Program-made: the position numbers and the translations under genes
The notes under the pieces: model-generated
What the model was told of the DNA's origin: nothing
What the model saw: only the letters and a program-made list of their open reading frames with translations
The model's database searches: none
In this document: piece by piece, positions 3,387-29,448 of the stretch
Layout: each line of letters opens with the position of its first letter
Position numbering within the stretch: position 1 is the stretch's first letter
IMG/VR virus record: IMGVR_UViG_3300046373_000251
Span: 1-29,448 of that record
Reading direction: 5' to 3' (one strand)
DNA length: 29,448 bases
Source of the DNA: a virus

Positions 3387-4595
3387 ATGAGTGAAATTTC
3401 CAAAAAAATAAATGTTTCAAATTACGATCGCGATGAACTATTGATCATTCTTTCAGAACCTTACCCTTATCAGGCATACACTGCTAAATACGAAATCTCA
3501 ATGTATTTAAGTGAACTTGATAAAAATAAAGATAACTATGGTATCAAATGTACGTTTTCAAAAAATGATGGAAGCATTTTAACAATTAAAACAGGTAATG
3601 CATTTCCAAAAGGACAGAAATCGATTGATGCCCTTATAGATAAGCTAGAGATTAATTTGTGCAATAATAGTACGTTTGTAAAAAGTGAAGTAGTTTTTAG
3701 TTACCTTAAAATCAATGGTGCATACTCAAGTAAAGGTTTTTTCCAAATCATACCACCACCAGAAAATGCACCCCAAACAAATCAATTTGGCCTTAACAAA
3801 CCATTGATTATACAATTTCCGGTGTTTTCAAGTCCTAATATACTTATTCGTCAATTACGAAACAATAATAAATTTGAAGAAATATATTTGTTATTAACTG
3901 TGTTCCTAAATTTTAACCTGGAGCGTGTCGACACTTCTGCACGCAGTCATTGGGTAGCAATTTTCGACGAAAAAAATCCACAACCTAATATTAAATACTA
4001 TCAAAGTTGTTATACTATTGATGGATTTAAACCAGAACAAGAAGAATATGATAACATCAACAACTACAACGATCTTGAGAAAAGGGACCACAATGATTAC
4101 TATGGATTATCTGTCGATCCCGATTCTTTCTTTACTTTACCTTTAAATATTGATGAATTATTCGAAAAATATTATTCATTACCCTTAAATCTGCAAAGAA
4201 ATTTTAAAAGATCAGCGTATTGGTATAACCATTCCAGAGATACCTACTCACTTTCAAAATCTGCTTCATATATCTCGTTAATAAATTCAATTGAAACTCT
4301 TTCTTCGAAACGATTATTTGAAAAAAAATGTAAAACTTGTGGTAAAACTCCTGATGATGGACCGACAAAACAATTTATCAATTTTATTGAACGATTTTCA
4401 CCCAATATGGCAAATAAAGCTAGTGAATTATATAGATCGAGGTCAGAATTAACTCATGGGCAATCCTTATTTGAGAGCGACTCCAGTAGCTCAATGTTCT
4501 CATTCACTTCAAATAAGGCTAAAGAATGGCTAGATTACCGAGAAACTCGTATCGGAGTTCAAATTGCATTGATAAATTGGTTGCTTTCAAATTAA
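3387..4595 (+). CDS. ApeA-like HEPN-domain protein, candidate abortive-infection gene
   Basis: A 402-residue protein encoded opposite to all surrounding structural genes, clearly more AT-rich than they are, with its own promoter at 3324-3352. The first 240 or so residues are a beta-rich domain I cannot name. The C-terminal part (about 280-402) looks like an ApeA-type HEPN domain: a helix with SASYISLINSIETLSS, a CxxC pair (C315, C318), then LYRSRSELTHGQ. The last contains the R-x4-H signature (R352, H357) of HEPN ribonucleases. HEPN proteins of this type act as abortive-infection toxins that cleave RNA after phage infection. Prophage cargo genes (morons) placed between late genes often protect the lysogen, so an anti-phage role is a reasonable inference. 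No antitoxin gene is adjacent. The HEPN call is fairly secure; the trigger and target are unknown. Confidence 0.75.
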   Translation: MSEISKKINVSNYDRDELLIILSEPYPYQAYTAKYEISMYLSELDKNKDNYGIKCTFSKNDGSILTIKTGNAFPKGQKSIDALIDKLEINLCNNSTFVKSEVVFSYLKINGAYSSKGFFQIIPPPENAPQTNQFGLNKPLIIQFPVFSSPNILIRQLRNNNKFEEIYLLLTVFLNFNLERVDTSARSHWVAIFDEKNPQPNIKYYQSCYTIDGFKPEQEEYDNINNYNDLEKRDHNDYYGLSVDPDSFFTLPLNIDELFEKYYSLPLNLQRNFKRSAYWYNHSRDTYSLSKSASYISLINSIETLSSKRLFEKKCKTCGKTPDDGPTKQFINFIERFSPNMANKASELYRSRSELTHGQSLFESDSSSSMFSFTSNKAKEWLDYRETRIGVQIALINWLLSN

Positions 4596-9688: not shown

Positions 9689-11092
9689 TTAACCTCCTCT
9701 AAAGAAGCTTTTGTCTATTGACCCGCCCGTTACCGATTTGACCATCTTGTTGTATTTATCCTGTGGTGTTGGCTCGTCCTCATCATATGGCTTAGGCGTA
9801 ACACTTGGTAATAAGCGCATTATGGTGAAGTAACGCAAAGCGTCCGGGGCATGTGTGAGCTCATGCGGTTCCGTTCTGCAATCGTTCGGATCTACTTCAT
9901 CATGTTGGATTTGTGGAAGTGTCCGAATGAGATTGACACAATTCTTGAATATTTTAAGTCTTGCTGTAATCTTGGTTTCGCCTGTTTGTTCATCCTTTAT
10001 TTCAAAAGGAGCTAACCATTCTTTCATGCTCAACCATCCGTCAACACGATCGTTGTTTGATCTAGTTAGCATGATGCCATTTTCTCGGAATATATCAGCT
10101 GCAGCTTTACCCGTTTCTGTATTACGCTTCCATAGATCGGGTGGGGCGTATGTGAGTTTAATTGTCTCGTTGGTCATAGCTTTGATCTTCTTACAAGCTG
10201 CGCTGATAATTACATTAGGTTCATATATTTCCTTGTAGATATAGGCAAAACCTTGGGTATCGATAGCCCCCCAGTAATGAGCTAACATATCCAGACCATA
10301 ATCCAAGAATCTGAACCGCTGCCAGTGGGCTGGTAGAACAAACGGATCAATAACATGAATGTCTGTTCTAAATTCTTCGAAGAATGTTCCGCCTGGTATG
10401 CCGTAATCCCCTAGACCAACGACTTTATAGCGTTCGGGATTGGTTGTGGCTAGCGCTTCGATCTTGGATCTATCTTGATCATCCAGCCATTCATTGCATT
10501 TGTAGGTTGTGGTAAGTGTGAATGCGTTCGGATCTGTGTTATCCCAGAATCGTTCCTTTGTCCAATGAGAATTTACCCAAGGGTTGTATGTTAGCGTGAG
10601 TTGCTTCCACAATCCTTCTGGCATTTCTCCGCGTATGCTCTCATCTACGGTGTCGAAGTCCGATTCTTTTTCAATTTCATAGACTTCCTCCCACCATACC
10701 CAACACAAAACACCTGTATCCACAGTCATGGATGTTAGTTTTAAAGGATCGTCCAGACCTCGGAATAATATTTTCTGTCCAGTGGCTAAATAAGTCGCTT
10801 CCAAAGGGGAAACAGTAAATTTCCATTTATCAAAAACACCCAGTTTTTTTGCTGCCCATTTCAATTGTGCAAATGTACTGTCTTTATGGGTGCTAAAGGT
10901 TTTTCTGATTACAACCGCATTTGCTTGCTTATATTTCATGATGTTATAGATGTACCAGAACCCGGTTGTTGCCGACTTCTTAGATCCTCGACCACCTTTA
11001 AGCACGCGATAACGCTTCTTAGAGTGCCAGAATGAAGCATATCCCTTACCAATTACATCCGGAAGGTTTATCTCAACTTCGTTAGTCTTCAA
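9689..11092 (-). CDS. terL: Terminase large subunit (TerL)
   Basis: The packaging motor ATPase and nuclease. I place the start at TTG 11092, giving 467 residues, because AAGGGGGA lies eight bases upstream. An in-frame ATG at 11146 would overlap terS by 65 bases and has no such site. Walker A is at about residues 32-40 (KGGRGSKKS), the hydrophobic strand plus acidic pair of Walker B is at about 129-136 (LCWVWWEE), and the coupling region contains LTYNPW. The C-terminal nuclease begins with the Asp-bearing strand RFLDYGLDMLAHYWGAID. The layout matches the PBSX/Terminase_3 family that cuts concatemers and pumps DNA through the portal. The gene overlaps terS by 11 bases. Confidence 0.92.
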   Translation of the reverse strand: MKTNEVEINLPDVIGKGYASFWHSKKRYRVLKGGRGSKKSATTGFWYIYNIMKYKQANAVVIRKTFSTHKDSTFAQLKWAAKKLGVFDKWKFTVSPLEATYLATGQKILFRGLDDPLKLTSMTVDTGVLCWVWWEEVYEIEKESDFDTVDESIRGEMPEGLWKQLTLTYNPWVNSHWTKERFWDNTDPNAFTLTTTYKCNEWLDDQDRSKIEALATTNPERYKVVGLGDYGIPGGTFFEEFRTDIHVIDPFVLPAHWQRFRFLDYGLDMLAHYWGAIDTQGFAYIYKEIYEPNVIISAACKKIKAMTNETIKLTYAPPDLWKRNTETGKAAADIFRENGIMLTRSNNDRVDGWLSMKEWLAPFEIKDEQTGETKITARLKIFKNCVNLIRTLPQIQHDEVDPNDCRTEPHELTHAPDALRYFTIMRLLPSVTPKPYDEDEPTPQDKYNKMVKSVTGGSIDKSFFRGG

Positions 11093-11846
11093 GGTTGTTG
11101 TCCCCCTTAAAGATAACTGTGACCTCAGAGCTCTTGCCCTTCTCAATATTGGCTATTTCAACCTTTGTCTTGTCTATGTTGAGTTGCATTGCTTGAAGCT
11201 TTAAAAGCCTCTCGTCATTTTCAGGCGCCGCCGCTTGGAATGATCTAACCGCTGCCCTAAACTCACGGGATGCTGTGGCCAGAGATTTCATAGTGCTGTT
11301 TTCTTTATCCCAAGCGTGCTGATATTCCCATTCTTCTTCAATATAGGTTTCGAAGGTTTCTATTCTTTGGTTTTCTCCCTTACCTACCTTTTCGCTATCC
11401 ATTTGTCGTTTATTTTTTTTAAGCACCTTTGTTTCATCCAGCTTATCTTTAACAAAAGTAATTTTCAACGAGTAGATAATCTTTGTGTGCCAGATAACCA
11501 CCATATCCCATAGCATATCAATAGGGTCTTTGTCCTCAAACTCTTCTGCCATATCGATCAACTCTTCTGGCATAAACCTACGAAATAGGCCATGCGTAAC
11601 CGCAAAGCCATTCTCAGGAGGTGCGCCAGTTCCGCCGCTATTACCAACAGCGTTCTTATTTCCTTTAGGAGCTCCCTTTGGTTTCTTGATTGGTTCAGCA
11701 TCCCAGTTATATTCATGCTTCCATTTGCGAATCATTCCCGGACTAATACCCAGCTCGTCCGCTATATCGACTAACTTCTTTTTCTTACCACTTTTGATCC
11801 ATATCTTTAGAGCTTTATCCCTTAAAGGGCTCGCTGATCTTGACAA
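11082..11846 (-). CDS. terS: Terminase small subunit (TerS)
   Basis: The DNA-recognition subunit of the packaging enzyme. Residues 10-55 hold a helix-turn-helix (LVDIADELGISPGMIRKWK), followed by a basic Gly/Pro linker with GAPKGNKNAVGN and a segment AVTHGLFRRF typical of PBSX-type small terminases. The C-terminal part is helical and mediates oligomerisation and TerL contact. The best start is TTG 11846 (MSRSASPLRDKALKIW, 254 residues) with GAGGTG six bases upstream; a GTG three codons earlier is the alternative. A 7-base inverted repeat 53 bases upstream may be part of the packaging recognition region. Confidence 0.88.
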   Translation of the reverse strand: MSRSASPLRDKALKIWIKSGKKKKLVDIADELGISPGMIRKWKHEYNWDAEPIKKPKGAPKGNKNAVGNSGGTGAPPENGFAVTHGLFRRFMPEELIDMAEEFEDKDPIDMLWDMVVIWHTKIIYSLKITFVKDKLDETKVLKKNKRQMDSEKVGKGENQRIETFETYIEEEWEYQHAWDKENSTMKSLATASREFRAAVRSFQAAAPENDERLLKLQAMQLNIDKTKVEIANIEKGKSSEVTVIFKGDNNLED

Positions 11847-11898
11847 GCATTTCACCTCACCCCCAAATATATAATTTTTGTCATATTTAATGTATTAT

Positions 11899-12020: not shown

Positions 12021-12572
12021 TTAATTCCTTGCAATACTTGCATTAGCCCAAAAGCTCGCTGTTTCCAGCTCAGTCATTGCAACGGATCGTTCGCGACTTG
12101 CCGGACACAATTCATCAATAAGATAAGCAAGATCCTTAAAAGCTTCTCGAACCCTATTATATTTCTCAGGTTGTCCCTCTTTTGGAGGATGGTAACTAAA
12201 GTTATTCTCAATTAGTTGGATTGTGCTTCTTGCAGCAGCCCTGTTTGCATCCACCACCGCTTTAAATAAATAATCCTTTGTTCGTTGATTCAAAGGTAGC
12301 TGATTGTAAGGAACCAGACATGGGTGCTCTTTCTTATCGGGATCTTTAACCGGTCCGTAAACCCATCCATCGGCAATTTTATCCTTTGACCAATTTTCAT
12401 GTGTTTGCTCCGGTGTCGCATCTCCGGATAAACAAAATTCAACGCCTTTAATTGCACTGTCCCTCTGCCATTGTTCAGCGTCTTCCCAGCTTGCTTGCGA
12501 GTTATCGCCGATACTAATACAATAAGCTCTGTTTACTTCATGACACAATTTAGCAATTACATTTGAACTCAA
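12021..12572 (-). CDS. RyR-domain protein fused to an Acb2/Tad1-type hairpin; likely cyclic-nucleotide sponge
   Basis: A 183-residue protein with two modules. Residues about 5-105 match the RyR domain found in phage and bacterial proteins (AKLCHEVNRAYC, then WEDAEQWQRDSAIKGVEF, HENWSKDKIADGW, YGPVKDPDKKEHPCLVPY and LPLNQRTKDYLF). The C-terminal 45 residues (FKDLAYLIDELCPASRER, then VAMTELETASFWANASIARN) match the helical hairpin of Acb2/Tad1 proteins. Those sequester the signals of CBASS and Thoeris immunity. RyR-type domains are themselves linked to nucleotide-signal systems in comparative genomics. The combination suggests a counter-defence protein. I favour TTG 12572 as start (AGAGG ten bases upstream); ATG 12581 is too close to that site. 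It lies downstream of the ArpU-like gene and upstream of terS. Confidence 0.75.
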   Translation of the reverse strand: MSSNVIAKLCHEVNRAYCISIGDNSQASWEDAEQWQRDSAIKGVEFCLSGDATPEQTHENWSKDKIADGWVYGPVKDPDKKEHPCLVPYNQLPLNQRTKDYLFKAVVDANRAAARSTIQLIENNFSYHPPKEGQPEKYNRVREAFKDLAYLIDELCPASRERSVAMTELETASFWANASIARN

Positions 12573-12605
12573 AATAACCATTCCTCTCTTATTTGTAATT
12601 GCTTA

Positions 12606-12944
12606 TCAGATATAAATTAATCGCGGCAGGCTATATTGCTTTGCATAATACTTCCGTGTTGCTCTGTCGAGAATAACTCCAAAATCCTTCATTATTGCTT
12701 TAGATACAGCTGATAAGCCAATTGACCCGGGAATGTACTTGCCGGTTCGTTTTGACGTTGTTGCTACAATTCTCCTGACCATCCGATCCAATATTGCTGG
12801 CTGCTTACCCATCCCAGCTGTTGCTGTAGCATGAATAGCAACTCGCTTCCGCGACTTAGGTTTGATATATATCCTCCATATCACGACATATAGAACCAGG
12901 AGTAAAACAGCGAATAAGTAATGACCTAGGCTTAGTGTTAGCAT
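12606..12944 (-). CDS. Small membrane-anchored basic protein, function unknown
   Basis: A 112-residue protein. ATG 12944 is preferred because GAGAGG lies nine bases upstream; a TTG three codons earlier is too close to that site. One hydrophobic segment covers about residues 5-25 (SLGHYLFAVLLLVLYVVIW). It is followed by a very basic stretch (KPKSRKRVAIH) and a soluble part with RKYYAKQYSLPRL at the end. The positive-inside rule places the C-terminus in the cytoplasm. It lies 33 bases upstream of the RyR-Acb2 start and 31 bases after a terminator, so it may be read from read-through or its own promoter. I do not recognise the family. Confidence 0.55.
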   Translation of the reverse strand: MLTLSLGHYLFAVLLLVLYVVIWRIYIKPKSRKRVAIHATATAGMGKQPAILDRMVRRIVATTSKRTGKYIPGSIGLSAVSKAIMKDFGVILDRATRKYYAKQYSLPRLIYI

Positions 12945-12975
12945 TGTTATCAACCTCTCATATTGGATTTATGTC

Positions 12976-13517: not shown

Positions 13518-14078
13518 CTACAGATTACTACCCAATCTAGCCTCGTCTAAGGTATCCTGTTTGATCCCTAAATAGCGCTTTGTGATCGATTCTTCGCTAT
13601 GATTGTACAGGTCCATTAGTAACGCTATGTTCTTCGTGCGGGCGTAATAATGATAACCGAATGTCTTTCTTAATGAATGTGTGCCTATTTCGTAAACGCC
13701 ATGCTTATGAGCAACCTTGCTGATCATTTTATAGGCCATGCTGCTGTCTATTGGCTGTTGCTTTAACCCTGATTTTTTCTTTTTATTTCGACTTGGAAAG
13801 AGGTAATCATTATCCAACAGGTTTTTAATGTAAGGATCAAGTGCTTTTCGAAGAGAGTCATTTATTATGATGTGTTGTGCTTTGCCGGTCTTCTGCTCAA
13901 TAAGATCGATGTACTCGCCTCTTGTCATCCCGGCTTTGATGGGGAGGATATCTGATATTCGTAATCCAGTGTTAATGCCTAGCATAAATAATACATAGTC
14001 GCGTTGGCTTGTTTGCTTTAAATATCGTTTTATAGCATCTAGTTTATGTAAGTCTCGTATGGGTTGGACGAATTTCAA
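13518..14078 (-). CDS. Catalytic-domain-only tyrosine recombinase (second integrase-family protein)
   Basis: A 186-residue member of the phage integrase family lacking arm-binding and most of the core-binding domains. Catalytic residues are visible: R40 in TGLRISD, a lysine near 64-66, H134 and R137 in THSLRKTF, H160 in YNHSE, and Y169 in KRYLGI. The start is TTG 14078, with GGAGG eight bases upstream. It lies between a Cys-rich protein and the packaging region, about 13 kb from the full-length integrase at 26497-27723, so it is unlikely to be the main integrase. Similar short recombinases occur near terS in several Bacillales phages. They may resolve multimers or act on replication products, but the role is not established. 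Confidence 0.85.
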   Translation of the reverse strand: MKFVQPIRDLHKLDAIKRYLKQTSQRDYVLFMLGINTGLRISDILPIKAGMTRGEYIDLIEQKTGKAQHIIINDSLRKALDPYIKNLLDNDYLFPSRNKKKKSGLKQQPIDSSMAYKMISKVAHKHGVYEIGTHSLRKTFGYHYYARTKNIALLMDLYNHSEESITKRYLGIKQDTLDEARLGSNL

Positions 14079-14298: not shown

Positions 14299-14688
14299 TC
14301 AAGCCTGTGTTTGCATTCTTTTTGCACTATTTATTTTTACACTTACTTTTGATATGTAACTGTAAGTAAACTTTGTCTCACTGGCAATCTCTGTTAGGGT
14401 TTTCCCTTCAATATCACGCATAAAAGCAACGGTATATTCGATACCTTTAAGGTTTTTTATACCAGCTTCTATTTTTGAAGCAAGCTCTTTTTTTAGATCG
14501 ATTTCTTCTTCGATAGCTTTCATGCGTTCTATGATATTATCATATTTTGACACTGATTTATCCAATGGCATAGAGTGTCCCCACACTTCAGCCTTATTAC
14601 GTTGAAGCTGCCTTATTAAATCTTCATGCAGCCAATCTAATAACACTATTTCCTCCAACAAATCTTTATAAGATTCGACAATTACCAT
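14299..14688 (-). CDS. ArpU-like late transcription regulator (sigma region 4-like HTH)
   Basis: A 129-residue protein. The first 80 residues form a long helical, partly coiled-coil region (DLLEEIVLLDWLHEDLIRQL and on). The C-terminal 45 residues contain KGIEYTVAFMRDIEGKTLTE and IASETKFTYSYISKVSVK, a sigma-70 region-4-like helix-turn-helix. This arrangement is that of ArpU/RinA-type phage regulators, which switch on packaging and structural genes. Its position at the junction of early genes and the terminase genes fits. AGGGG lies about eight bases before ATG, and a weak promoter-like sequence stands 21 bases further upstream. The target late promoter is not identified in this window. Confidence 0.75.
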   Translation of the reverse strand: MVIVESYKDLLEEIVLLDWLHEDLIRQLQRNKAEVWGHSMPLDKSVSKYDNIIERMKAIEEEIDLKKELASKIEAGIKNLKGIEYTVAFMRDIEGKTLTEIASETKFTYSYISKVSVKINSAKRMQTQA

Positions 14689-14888: not shown

Positions 14889-15206
14889 TCAATCCTTGAC
14901 TATATTCATTACCGGCTGCAACGTTCGGACATCAACTATATCCATTCCTAGCTCTAACGCTAGATTGACTTCTATTCTTGCCCCTTTTGACTTCTGCCAA
15001 CCTGGTAATACAGCCACTTTATGTGCGAACATCATTTCTCTTATATCTCTTCGCATGCAGGATTCCCAATCTTTGATGGGTTGTTCAATCTCAGCAGGGC
15101 TGATTACTTCATATCCCTTTGATCTTAGATTAGAAGCAGCTGAATGGAATGCCGGGAAGTTTAATTCTTCATATCCTGTCATGGGTCCTGAGATGTAAAC
15201 TATCAT
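14889..15206 (-). CDS. DUF4406 protein, nucleoside 2-deoxyribosyltransferase-like fold
   Basis: A 105-residue protein starting MIVYISGPMTGYEELNFPAF, the diagnostic opening of DUF4406. The N-terminal strand plus Gly-Pro loop resembles the nucleotide-binding loop of nucleoside 2-deoxyribosyltransferases. The second block (LRSKGYEVISPAEIE) and a later WQKSKGARIEVNLALELG complete a Rossmann-like half. The Glu in GARIEVNLA lies where the deoxyribosyltransferase catalytic Glu is found; that equivalence is inference. Substrate is unknown; a nucleotide or base-modified nucleoside is plausible. Its ATG follows the previous stop with no gap (TAAATG), so translation is coupled. It is the last early gene before two hairpins. 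Confidence 0.75.
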   Translation of the reverse strand: MIVYISGPMTGYEELNFPAFHSAASNLRSKGYEVISPAEIEQPIKDWESCMRRDIREMMFAHKVAVLPGWQKSKGARIEVNLALELGMDIVDVRTLQPVMNIVKD

Positions 15207-26496: not shown

Positions 26497-27723
26497 ATGC
26501 AAGGACACTTCTATAAACCAAATTGTAAGTGCATAGATTCTAAGGGGGAAAGTAAGAAATCAAAAAAATGTTCTTGCGGAGCCACCTGGTCCTATATTTT
26601 AGATGTTGGTTTTCAAGCAACCGGCAAGCGTAAGCAAAAGAAAAAAGGCGGATTTCGAACTAAGGGGGACGCGGAAGAAGCAGCTGCACTACTTGTTGCT
26701 GAGTTGGCCAAAGGAACCTATGTTGAAGAATCGAATATCAACTTCAAAGAATTCTCGCAAGTGTGGTTAGATGCCTATATAAACAAAGGCAAGGTGAAGA
26801 ATGGTACAATCCGGGTGAGGAAACATGAAATAGGTAACCTAATGCCTTATTTTGAATTTTTAAAAATGAAAGAAATTACACGACAACAATATCAAGATGC
26901 ATTAAACGATCTTAAAAAACGGCTTGCTGATAATACTGTAGACGGTATCCATTCCACTGGAAGAACTATATTTAAATATGCGGTAGAGATCGGAAGCATC
27001 AGAACGGATCCTACTCAATATACTTATGTCCCAAAGGTACAAAAAACACTTGAGCAAGTAGAACAAGAAAAAATAAATATTAAATACCTCGAAAAAGAAG
27101 AATTGGCGCTGCTTCTGAAAACAGCCAAAGAAAAAGGGATGTCCGATGATTATCTTATTTTTTTAATACTCTCTTACAGCGGATTACGAGTTGGGGAATT
27201 ATGCGCCCTTAAAAGAACGGATTTTGATTTCAAGGAGCATAAAGTGAATGTAACAAAGACTTACTATAACCCAAATAACAATACAGTCGAATATGTTTTA
27301 GGAACCCCGAAAACAAAAAAATCTGTTAGAAAAATAGATCTAGAACCTATCATATTCGATGAATTAGAAAAACATTTCAAGCAACAAGATGATTATAAAA
27401 GAGACCAAGGAGATAATTATTACGACAAAGATTATGTGTTCGTTAGCACTGAGTATCCAGGTTATCCTTACTACATTAAAAAAATTCAAAATCGGTTTAA
27501 ACTGTTGTTGAAGCTAGCTGGGCTAAATCAAGAGCTCACCCCACATTCCTTGCGACATACTCACACATCGCTTCTCGCTGAAGCAGGAGTAGGTTTAATT
27601 GACATTATGGATCGACTAGGGCATGAGGATGATGAAACAACAAAATACGTTTATCTGCACGTTACAAAGGCTAAAAAGAAAGAAGCCTCCCAAAAGTTCG
27701 GAGAACTCATGAGAAGCTTCTAA
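26497..27723 (+). CDS. int: Phage tyrosine integrase
   Basis: A 408-residue site-specific recombinase of the Tn916/phage type. The N-terminus has four Cys (C10, C12, C25, C27) and a basic arm-binding region (GKRKQKKKGGFRTKGDAEEA). A SAM-like core-binding domain covers about 83-180. The catalytic domain holds R231 (GLRVGE), Lys near 272-275, H350 and R353 (HSLRHTH), H376 (LGHEDD) and Y386 (VYLHVT). A good ribosome binding site (AAGGAAAGA) precedes ATG. It is the last prophage gene before host groEL, reads toward it, and is followed by repeats that suit arm-type binding. It should integrate and, with the excisionase-like protein, excise the phage. Confidence 0.93.
   Translation: MQGHFYKPNCKCIDSKGESKKSKKCSCGATWSYILDVGFQATGKRKQKKKGGFRTKGDAEEAAALLVAELAKGTYVEESNINFKEFSQVWLDAYINKGKVKNGTIRVRKHEIGNLMPYFEFLKMKEITRQQYQDALNDLKKRLADNTVDGIHSTGRTIFKYAVEIGSIRTDPTQYTYVPKVQKTLEQVEQEKINIKYLEKEELALLLKTAKEKGMSDDYLIFLILSYSGLRVGELCALKRTDFDFKEHKVNVTKTYYNPNNNTVEYVLGTPKTKKSVRKIDLEPIIFDELEKHFKQQDDYKRDQGDNYYDKDYVFVSTEYPGYPYYIKKIQNRFKLLLKLAGLNQELTPHSLRHTHTSLLAEAGVGLIDIMDRLGHEDDETTKYVYLHVTKAKKKEASQKFGELMRSF

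Positions 27724-27810: not shown

Positions 27811-27812
<2 letters not shown>
27776..27812 (+). terminator. Terminator of the integrase gene overlapping the groEL end
   Basis: CCTTAT (27782-27787) pairs with ATAAGG (27791-27796), flanked by ACGA/TCGT pairing (27776-27779 with 27799-27802), then seven T at 27806-27812 on the plus strand. The T run covers part of the groEL stop codon on the other strand, so this sequence is shared between host gene end and phage transcript end. Confidence 0.5.

Positions 27813-29448
<1,636 letters not shown>

Follow-up and report, generated by a model that had tools for sequence, protein, structure and literature searches.

A prophage-encoded fusion of an RyR domain with an Acb2/Tad1-type hairpin, and the recurrent linkage of these modules in phages: a putative two-module counter-defence protein

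The link between RyR-domain proteins and immune evasion dates only from May 2026, when phage members were reported to cleave or sequester the 2'/3'cADPR signals of Thoeris (PMC13232231). One of these, RyDEP, is gp78 of phage DyoEdafos (PDB 35TM) and a two-fold dimer; it inactivates the 2'/3'cADPR signals, and the residues mutated in it include Q54, H75, W78, H100 and D117 (PMC13232231). Of eight RyDEP homologs tested, six bound 2'/3'cADPR and none was seen to cleave it; the noncleaving homologs are highly conserved in sequence, and two homologs were shown to be sponges in vivo (PMC13232231). More generally, R12 domains bind adenine nucleotides, as in the structures of RyR3 with ATP and ADP. 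The Acb2 and Tad1 sponges have been studied as separate families, and the RyDEP paper makes no mention of them or of their hairpin. In both families the hairpin is the hexamerisation element, and the pockets of the hexamers hold cyclic di- and trinucleotides (PMC12043709); each hexamer is assembled from dimers. The Acb2 protomer has been published as a short N-helix and two long helices (PMC12043709, PMC10419184), and in T4 Acb2 the Y8A mutant is binding-deficient while T68M weakens binding (PMC12657230).

The window, by which we mean the whole 29,448-base stretch of DNA analysed here, is a prophage record that at its integrase end runs into a groEL gene lying outside the phage genes. This groEL is 83% identical to that of Bacillus canaveralius and 73% identical to that of Sporomusa silvacetica, and the host therefore probably belongs to the Bacilli. 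The fusion gene lies directly upstream of the gene for the terminase small subunit (TerS), 165 bp from it (Table 1). Its open frame extends over 12021-12581, giving 186 aa from an alternative ATG start at 12581. However, a Shine-Dalgarno-like AGAGAGG precedes the in-frame TTG at 12572 by 10 nt and the ATG by only 1 nt, which makes the TTG the likelier start. Residue numbers throughout are those of the 186-aa ATG form. The plus strand of 12021-12572 contains stops, a promoter scan gave no excess over shuffled sequence, and neither NCBIfam nor PADLOC had a family for the fusion protein.

Table 1. Position of the fusion gene, its domains and other genes of the window, with the loci of an associated small protein
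Feature	Position	Strand	Evidence or remark
RyR-hairpin fusion CDS	12021..12572	minus	183 aa, probable TTG start at 12572; from ORF
RyR/R12 domain, residues 9-112	12246..12557	minus	PF02026, RyDEP alignments, AF2, Foldseek
Inter-domain linker, residues 113-121	12219..12245	minus	AF2 model
Acb2/Tad1-type hairpin, residues 122-186	12024..12218	minus	PF24729, T4 Acb2 alignment, PDB profile, AF2
Shine-Dalgarno-like AGAGAGG	12583..12589	minus	sequence
Terminase small subunit (TerS), next gene downstream	11082..11855	minus	Pfam PF10668, PHROG 509
Terminase large subunit	9689..11146	minus	PHROGs 3717 and 2
115-aa gene, next upstream of fusion gene	12606..12953	minus	no known family
402-aa ORF	3387..4595	plus	
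Second tyrosine-recombinase-like gene	13518..14078	minus	PHROG 216 integrase
ArpU-like gene	14299..14688		
DUF4406 gene	14889..15206	minus	PHROG 355
Main integrase	26497..27723		
groEL	27811..29448	minus	
About 75-aa protein, locus L176	4759..4992		
About 75-aa protein, locus L177	2920..3153		
About 75-aa protein, loci L183, L184, L189, L197			
About 75-aa protein, loci L166, L167, L180, L188, L196			

Both domains are shown by profile matches. Residues 57-103 match Pfam RyR (PF02026) with E=1.3e-13 and 51.4 bits against a curated cut-off of 27.4, and residues 129-185 match Acb2_Tad1_hairpin (PF24729) with 88.2 bits against a cut-off of 27. Phage RyR relatives align over window residues 9-112. 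RyR and hairpin were modelled in two separate AF2 runs, not from one mixed alignment, because MAFFT misplaced the hairpin rows when the two were combined. In the full-length model (24 RyR-family rows) residues 11-110 take up an RyR fold at pLDDT about 92-97, and a single long helix (97-130) is predicted to run from the last RyR helix through the linker towards the hairpin. The hairpin itself is of low confidence in that model (pLDDT 48-77), since the alignment held RyR rows only and none covered it. When the RyR model was compared with the PDB by Foldseek the best match was 6UHI (E=2.4e-4), nearly all of the top 50 being RyR domains, and models of several phage RyR proteins superpose on that of the window at 0.6-1.0 A over about 107 residues. 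Modelled alone (pLDDT 83.5), the hairpin is predicted as a short N-helix followed by two long helices (H2-15, H24-44, H49-71), in agreement with the published Acb2 protomer. A Foldseek search with the hairpin model alone returned no Acb2/Tad1 structure among the rows shown; short helices give noise in such searches.

An earlier, sequence-only reading of this gene had proposed an RyR domain fused to an Acb2/Tad1 hairpin, and this held, on Pfam matches far above the cut-offs. So did 12572 as the end of the gene, which on the minus strand is the probable true start. The first two thirds had been assigned to RyR; in phage relatives that domain extends over about residues 9-112. The hairpin had been placed in the C-terminal 45 residues; the match stands but the length does not, as all 58 Pfam positions are covered and stand-alone relatives have about 68 residues. 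Two tests had been set, a profile match to the hairpin family and a predicted helical hairpin with its oligomeric pocket: the first was passed strongly (E=4e-25), and for the second the helical hairpin is present in the AF2 model, the pocket lying outside what that model covers. The gene had further been placed beside an ArpU regulator and the terminase, which is correct for TerS, but about 1.7 kb with three ORFs separates the fusion gene from the ArpU-like one.

The RyR half resembles RyDEP in its R12/PF02026 domain, in being phage-encoded and in its pocket residues. We confirmed the RyDEP residue numbering against the gp78 sequence, and in the alignment H61 (12399-12401), W64 (12390-12392), H86 (12324-12326) and D103 (12273-12275) correspond to RyDEP H75, W78, H100 and D117, with identical spacing. 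All four are invariant in the 117 unique relatives. It differs from RyDEP in having only 27% identity with it, in the presence of the hairpin, which RyDEP lacks, and in the residue at the position of Gln54, which is Ser in the window, in all 117 relatives and in the homologs from Ruegeria and Pectobacterium phages. This last alignment is less sure, as there are gaps nearby, and the residue concerns the glycosidase subtype only. Identity of the window RyR is higher to the Pectobacterium phage homolog (52%) and to that of Ruegeria (41%). The two published sponge examples come from phages of these same host genera, although it is not established that the accessions compared here are the same. An RyR sponge is likelier than a glycosidase because the Ser in place of Gln54 is shared with phages of sponge-type host genera, and the RyR half is likely to bind cADPR signals, sequestering rather than cleaving them; this is inferred from sequence, without binding data.

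The hairpin half was compared with Acb2 (T4 Vs.4, PDB 7UQ2; homolog 43, PDB 9PTQ) and with Tad1 (PDB 7UAV, 8SMD and others). A hairpin-family profile matched Acb2 homolog 43 in the PDB with E=1.4e-8, the Tad1 entries with 0.11 and T4 Vs.4 with 0.36, so that the matches to Tad1 and T4 Acb2 are individually weak. With Acb2 it shares the PF24729 hairpin, the short N-helix and the positions of Tyr8 and Thr68: in the alignment with T4 Vs.4, in which the residues were checked, Y130 (12192-12194) corresponds to Y8 and T170 (12072-12074) to T68, while R145 (12147-12149) aligns with Lys23. Among 64 unique hairpins Tyr is found at the first of these positions in 54 and Thr at the second in 62. Acb2, however, is a free protein of about 70-90 aa, whereas here the hairpin is the C-terminal half of a fusion, and a stand-alone Acb2 identity was rejected because of that fusion to RyR. 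Tad1 shares PF24729 and a similar order, with an N-terminal ligand domain and then a C-terminal two-helix hairpin, but its N-terminus is a four-stranded antiparallel sheet (beta1-beta4) and not a helical RyR domain. Membership of Tad1 was rejected since this beta domain is absent, and within the earlier label of Acb2/Tad1-type the Tad1 likeness therefore holds for layout only. The protein AGH07415.1 of Sulfitobacter phage phiCB2047-B (UniProt M4PQN8) likewise has RyR and then hairpin, both over the Pfam cut-offs, and is 40% identical to the window protein over 95% of the length. It differs in its more divergent, proteobacterial-type hairpin, and is annotated only as a hypothetical protein.

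A survey of 146 loci with RyR and 86 with the hairpin showed that the two have been linked repeatedly, either fused, in one order or the other, or lying close together as same-strand genes. Besides the window, fusions were found in phiCB2047-B, in the same order, and in a third locus (L013) in which the hairpin precedes RyR; close same-strand pairs occur in loci L081, L032, L023, L203, L211 and L225 and in the L176-L197 group, where one extra small gene lies between hairpin and RyR. The neighbouring hairpins in linked loci pass the Pfam cut-off. In L081, from Bacillus canaveralius, the hairpin precedes RyR, its last sense codon being separated by 18 nt from the ATG that follows, and the pair sits between portal-like and scaffold-like genes (judged by ORF order and sequence, without a family search). 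In L225, found by a hairpin-to-RyR junction pattern, the two genes are coupled by the stop-start overlap ATGA and follow a terminase-like gene; junction patterns for more RyR-to-hairpin fusions in viral contigs found none. A terminase match was present in 23 of the 86 hairpin loci.

In a tree of RyR domains, whose resolution is limited by few columns, the window is placed beside L081 (support 99/89), and the label 'linked' requires eight changes, at least six of them forced by well-supported branches. The independent linked examples include Bacillus, Sulfitobacter and uncultured phages. A hairpin lies within 600 bp in seven of eight lineages against 0.8 expected were the hairpins placed at random within these loci; the resulting P of about 5e-7 is indicative only, as the test was post hoc and the queries used to collect the loci contained both domains. 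RyR is rare in Bacilli (2 of 400 genomes) and the hairpin uncommon (13 of the 400 genomes have one over the cut-off, and BLAST found it in 318 of 50,697 phage records), and chance neighbourhood is therefore unlikely. When RyR sequences from viral contigs were clustered at 90% identity, a hairpin was fused or within 600 bp in 6 of 86 clusters; the other 80 had none nearby, so that the partnership is optional. The recurrence of the linkage supports a functional partnership.

From these comparisons we favour, with moderate confidence, the view that the fusion is a counter-defence protein with two separate signal-binding modules; its ligands, its oligomeric state, its sponge mode and its anti-defence role are all inferred. 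The RyR half would take up 2'/3'cADPR Thoeris signals in an R12 pocket formed by H61, W64, H86 and D103, and would more probably hold than hydrolyse them. The hairpin half would form a hexamer as in Acb2 and Tad1, with pockets for cyclic di- or trinucleotides, the signals of CBASS, and such a hexamer would put more RyR pockets on each particle. In principle the two modes of assembly do not conflict, since RyDEP forms a two-fold dimer and dimers are also the units of the Acb2/Tad1 hexamer. Placement in the late region may mean that the sponge is supplied while capsid proteins, which are reported Thoeris triggers, are being made. The previous suggestion of an anti-CBASS or anti-Thoeris sponge is thus supported, with RyDEP as a precedent that sharpens its anti-Thoeris part, though binding, hexamer and activity remain inferences; that the fusion could bind two ligands is supported, again by inference, by the ligand residues kept in both halves. 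A bolder reading, which we consider slightly less likely than not, is that RyR and hairpin constitute a modular two-component anti-signalling cassette, shuffled between fused and paired-gene forms, and that the fusion particle with its separate pockets would block Thoeris and CBASS at once.

The alternative that survives best is that only RyR binds a signal, the hairpin being an oligomerisation scaffold that raises avidity without a cyclic-nucleotide ligand of its own. This is possible, given that the hairpin is the hexamerisation element of Acb2 and Tad1 (PMC12043709), and it fits the Tad1-like layout of N-terminal domain and C-terminal hairpin. Against it, the hairpin retains the ligand positions Y8 and T68 of T4 Acb2, stand-alone hairpin genes are widespread without RyR, and several phages encode the two modules separately. 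It is unlikely that the RyR half is a true RyDEP-type glycosidase, yielding ADPR from 2'/3'cADPR, while the hairpin serves separately as a CBASS sponge. The catalytic His/Asp dyad of RyDEP is present (H61/D103), but the conserved residues are not diagnostic, because highly conserved homologs did not cleave when tested (PMC13232231); in addition, Ser replaces Gln54, homologs from sponge-type host genera are by far the nearer ones in sequence, and none of the window genes scanned was recognised as NARP1. Less likely still is a phage-side or lysogenic role, in which the protein binds ATP, ADP, ADPR or a phage-made cyclic nucleotide and regulates the late programme rather than host immunity. The binding of adenine nucleotides by R12 domains, and the position of the gene adjoining TerS and of the L081 pair among structural genes, could be read in this way, but there are direct counter-defence precedents for both modules (PMC13232231, PMC12043709), and, unlike core phage regulators, the genes have moved among different types of phage and different sites. 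A chance fusion of unrelated neighbours by loss of a stop codon, without joint function, is very unlikely. In its favour, most linked phages have two separate genes, which in L081, the sister of the window, are adjacent. Against it, simple read-through cannot suffice when the gene order in L081 is opposite to that of the window and fusions occur in both orders, and the linkage has been repeated independently.

For the preferred reading of two signal-binding modules, what is novel is the recurrent RyR-hairpin linkage; the sponge and RyDEP families themselves were known. No paper found describes the pairing, although mention of it in key subscription papers is not excluded. A natural fusion together with repeated gene pairing suggests that phages combine signal-disposal modules, and the fusion offers a compact, testable candidate for one protein defeating two signalling immune systems. 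The pairing also suggests that one toolkit includes many of the hairpin and RyR genes that stand alone, unexplained, in phages.

Some further observations concern the surroundings of these genes. No TIR_2 was detected in the genome of Bacillus canaveralius, the bearer of the sister gene pair; this was the only family searched. In the window, the ArpU-like regulator is adjoined by a DUF4406 gene resembling nucleoside 2-deoxyribosyltransferases, and there is a second tyrosine-recombinase-like gene in addition to the main integrase. The 402-aa ORF, which runs opposite to the structural genes, had no match in Pfam, PHROG or PADLOC; it contains an R-x4-H motif (RSELTHG) resembling the one in HEPN ribonucleases, and could possibly be a defence or moron gene carried by the prophage. 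In other loci a conserved protein of about 75 aa (MSTRIYLVTDVETNKHRLIRAGNQAQAIRHAAQ...), without a Pfam match, is encoded immediately upstream of RyR in each of the 12 loci in which it was detected, and between hairpin and RyR wherever a hairpin is present; it may be a third member of the cassette. Finally, the Gordonia phage ChisanaKitsune (NC_071006 / MZ820089) has a stand-alone hairpin at about 10.6 kb and, far from it at 49.3 kb, a stand-alone RyR adjoining holin and endolysin.
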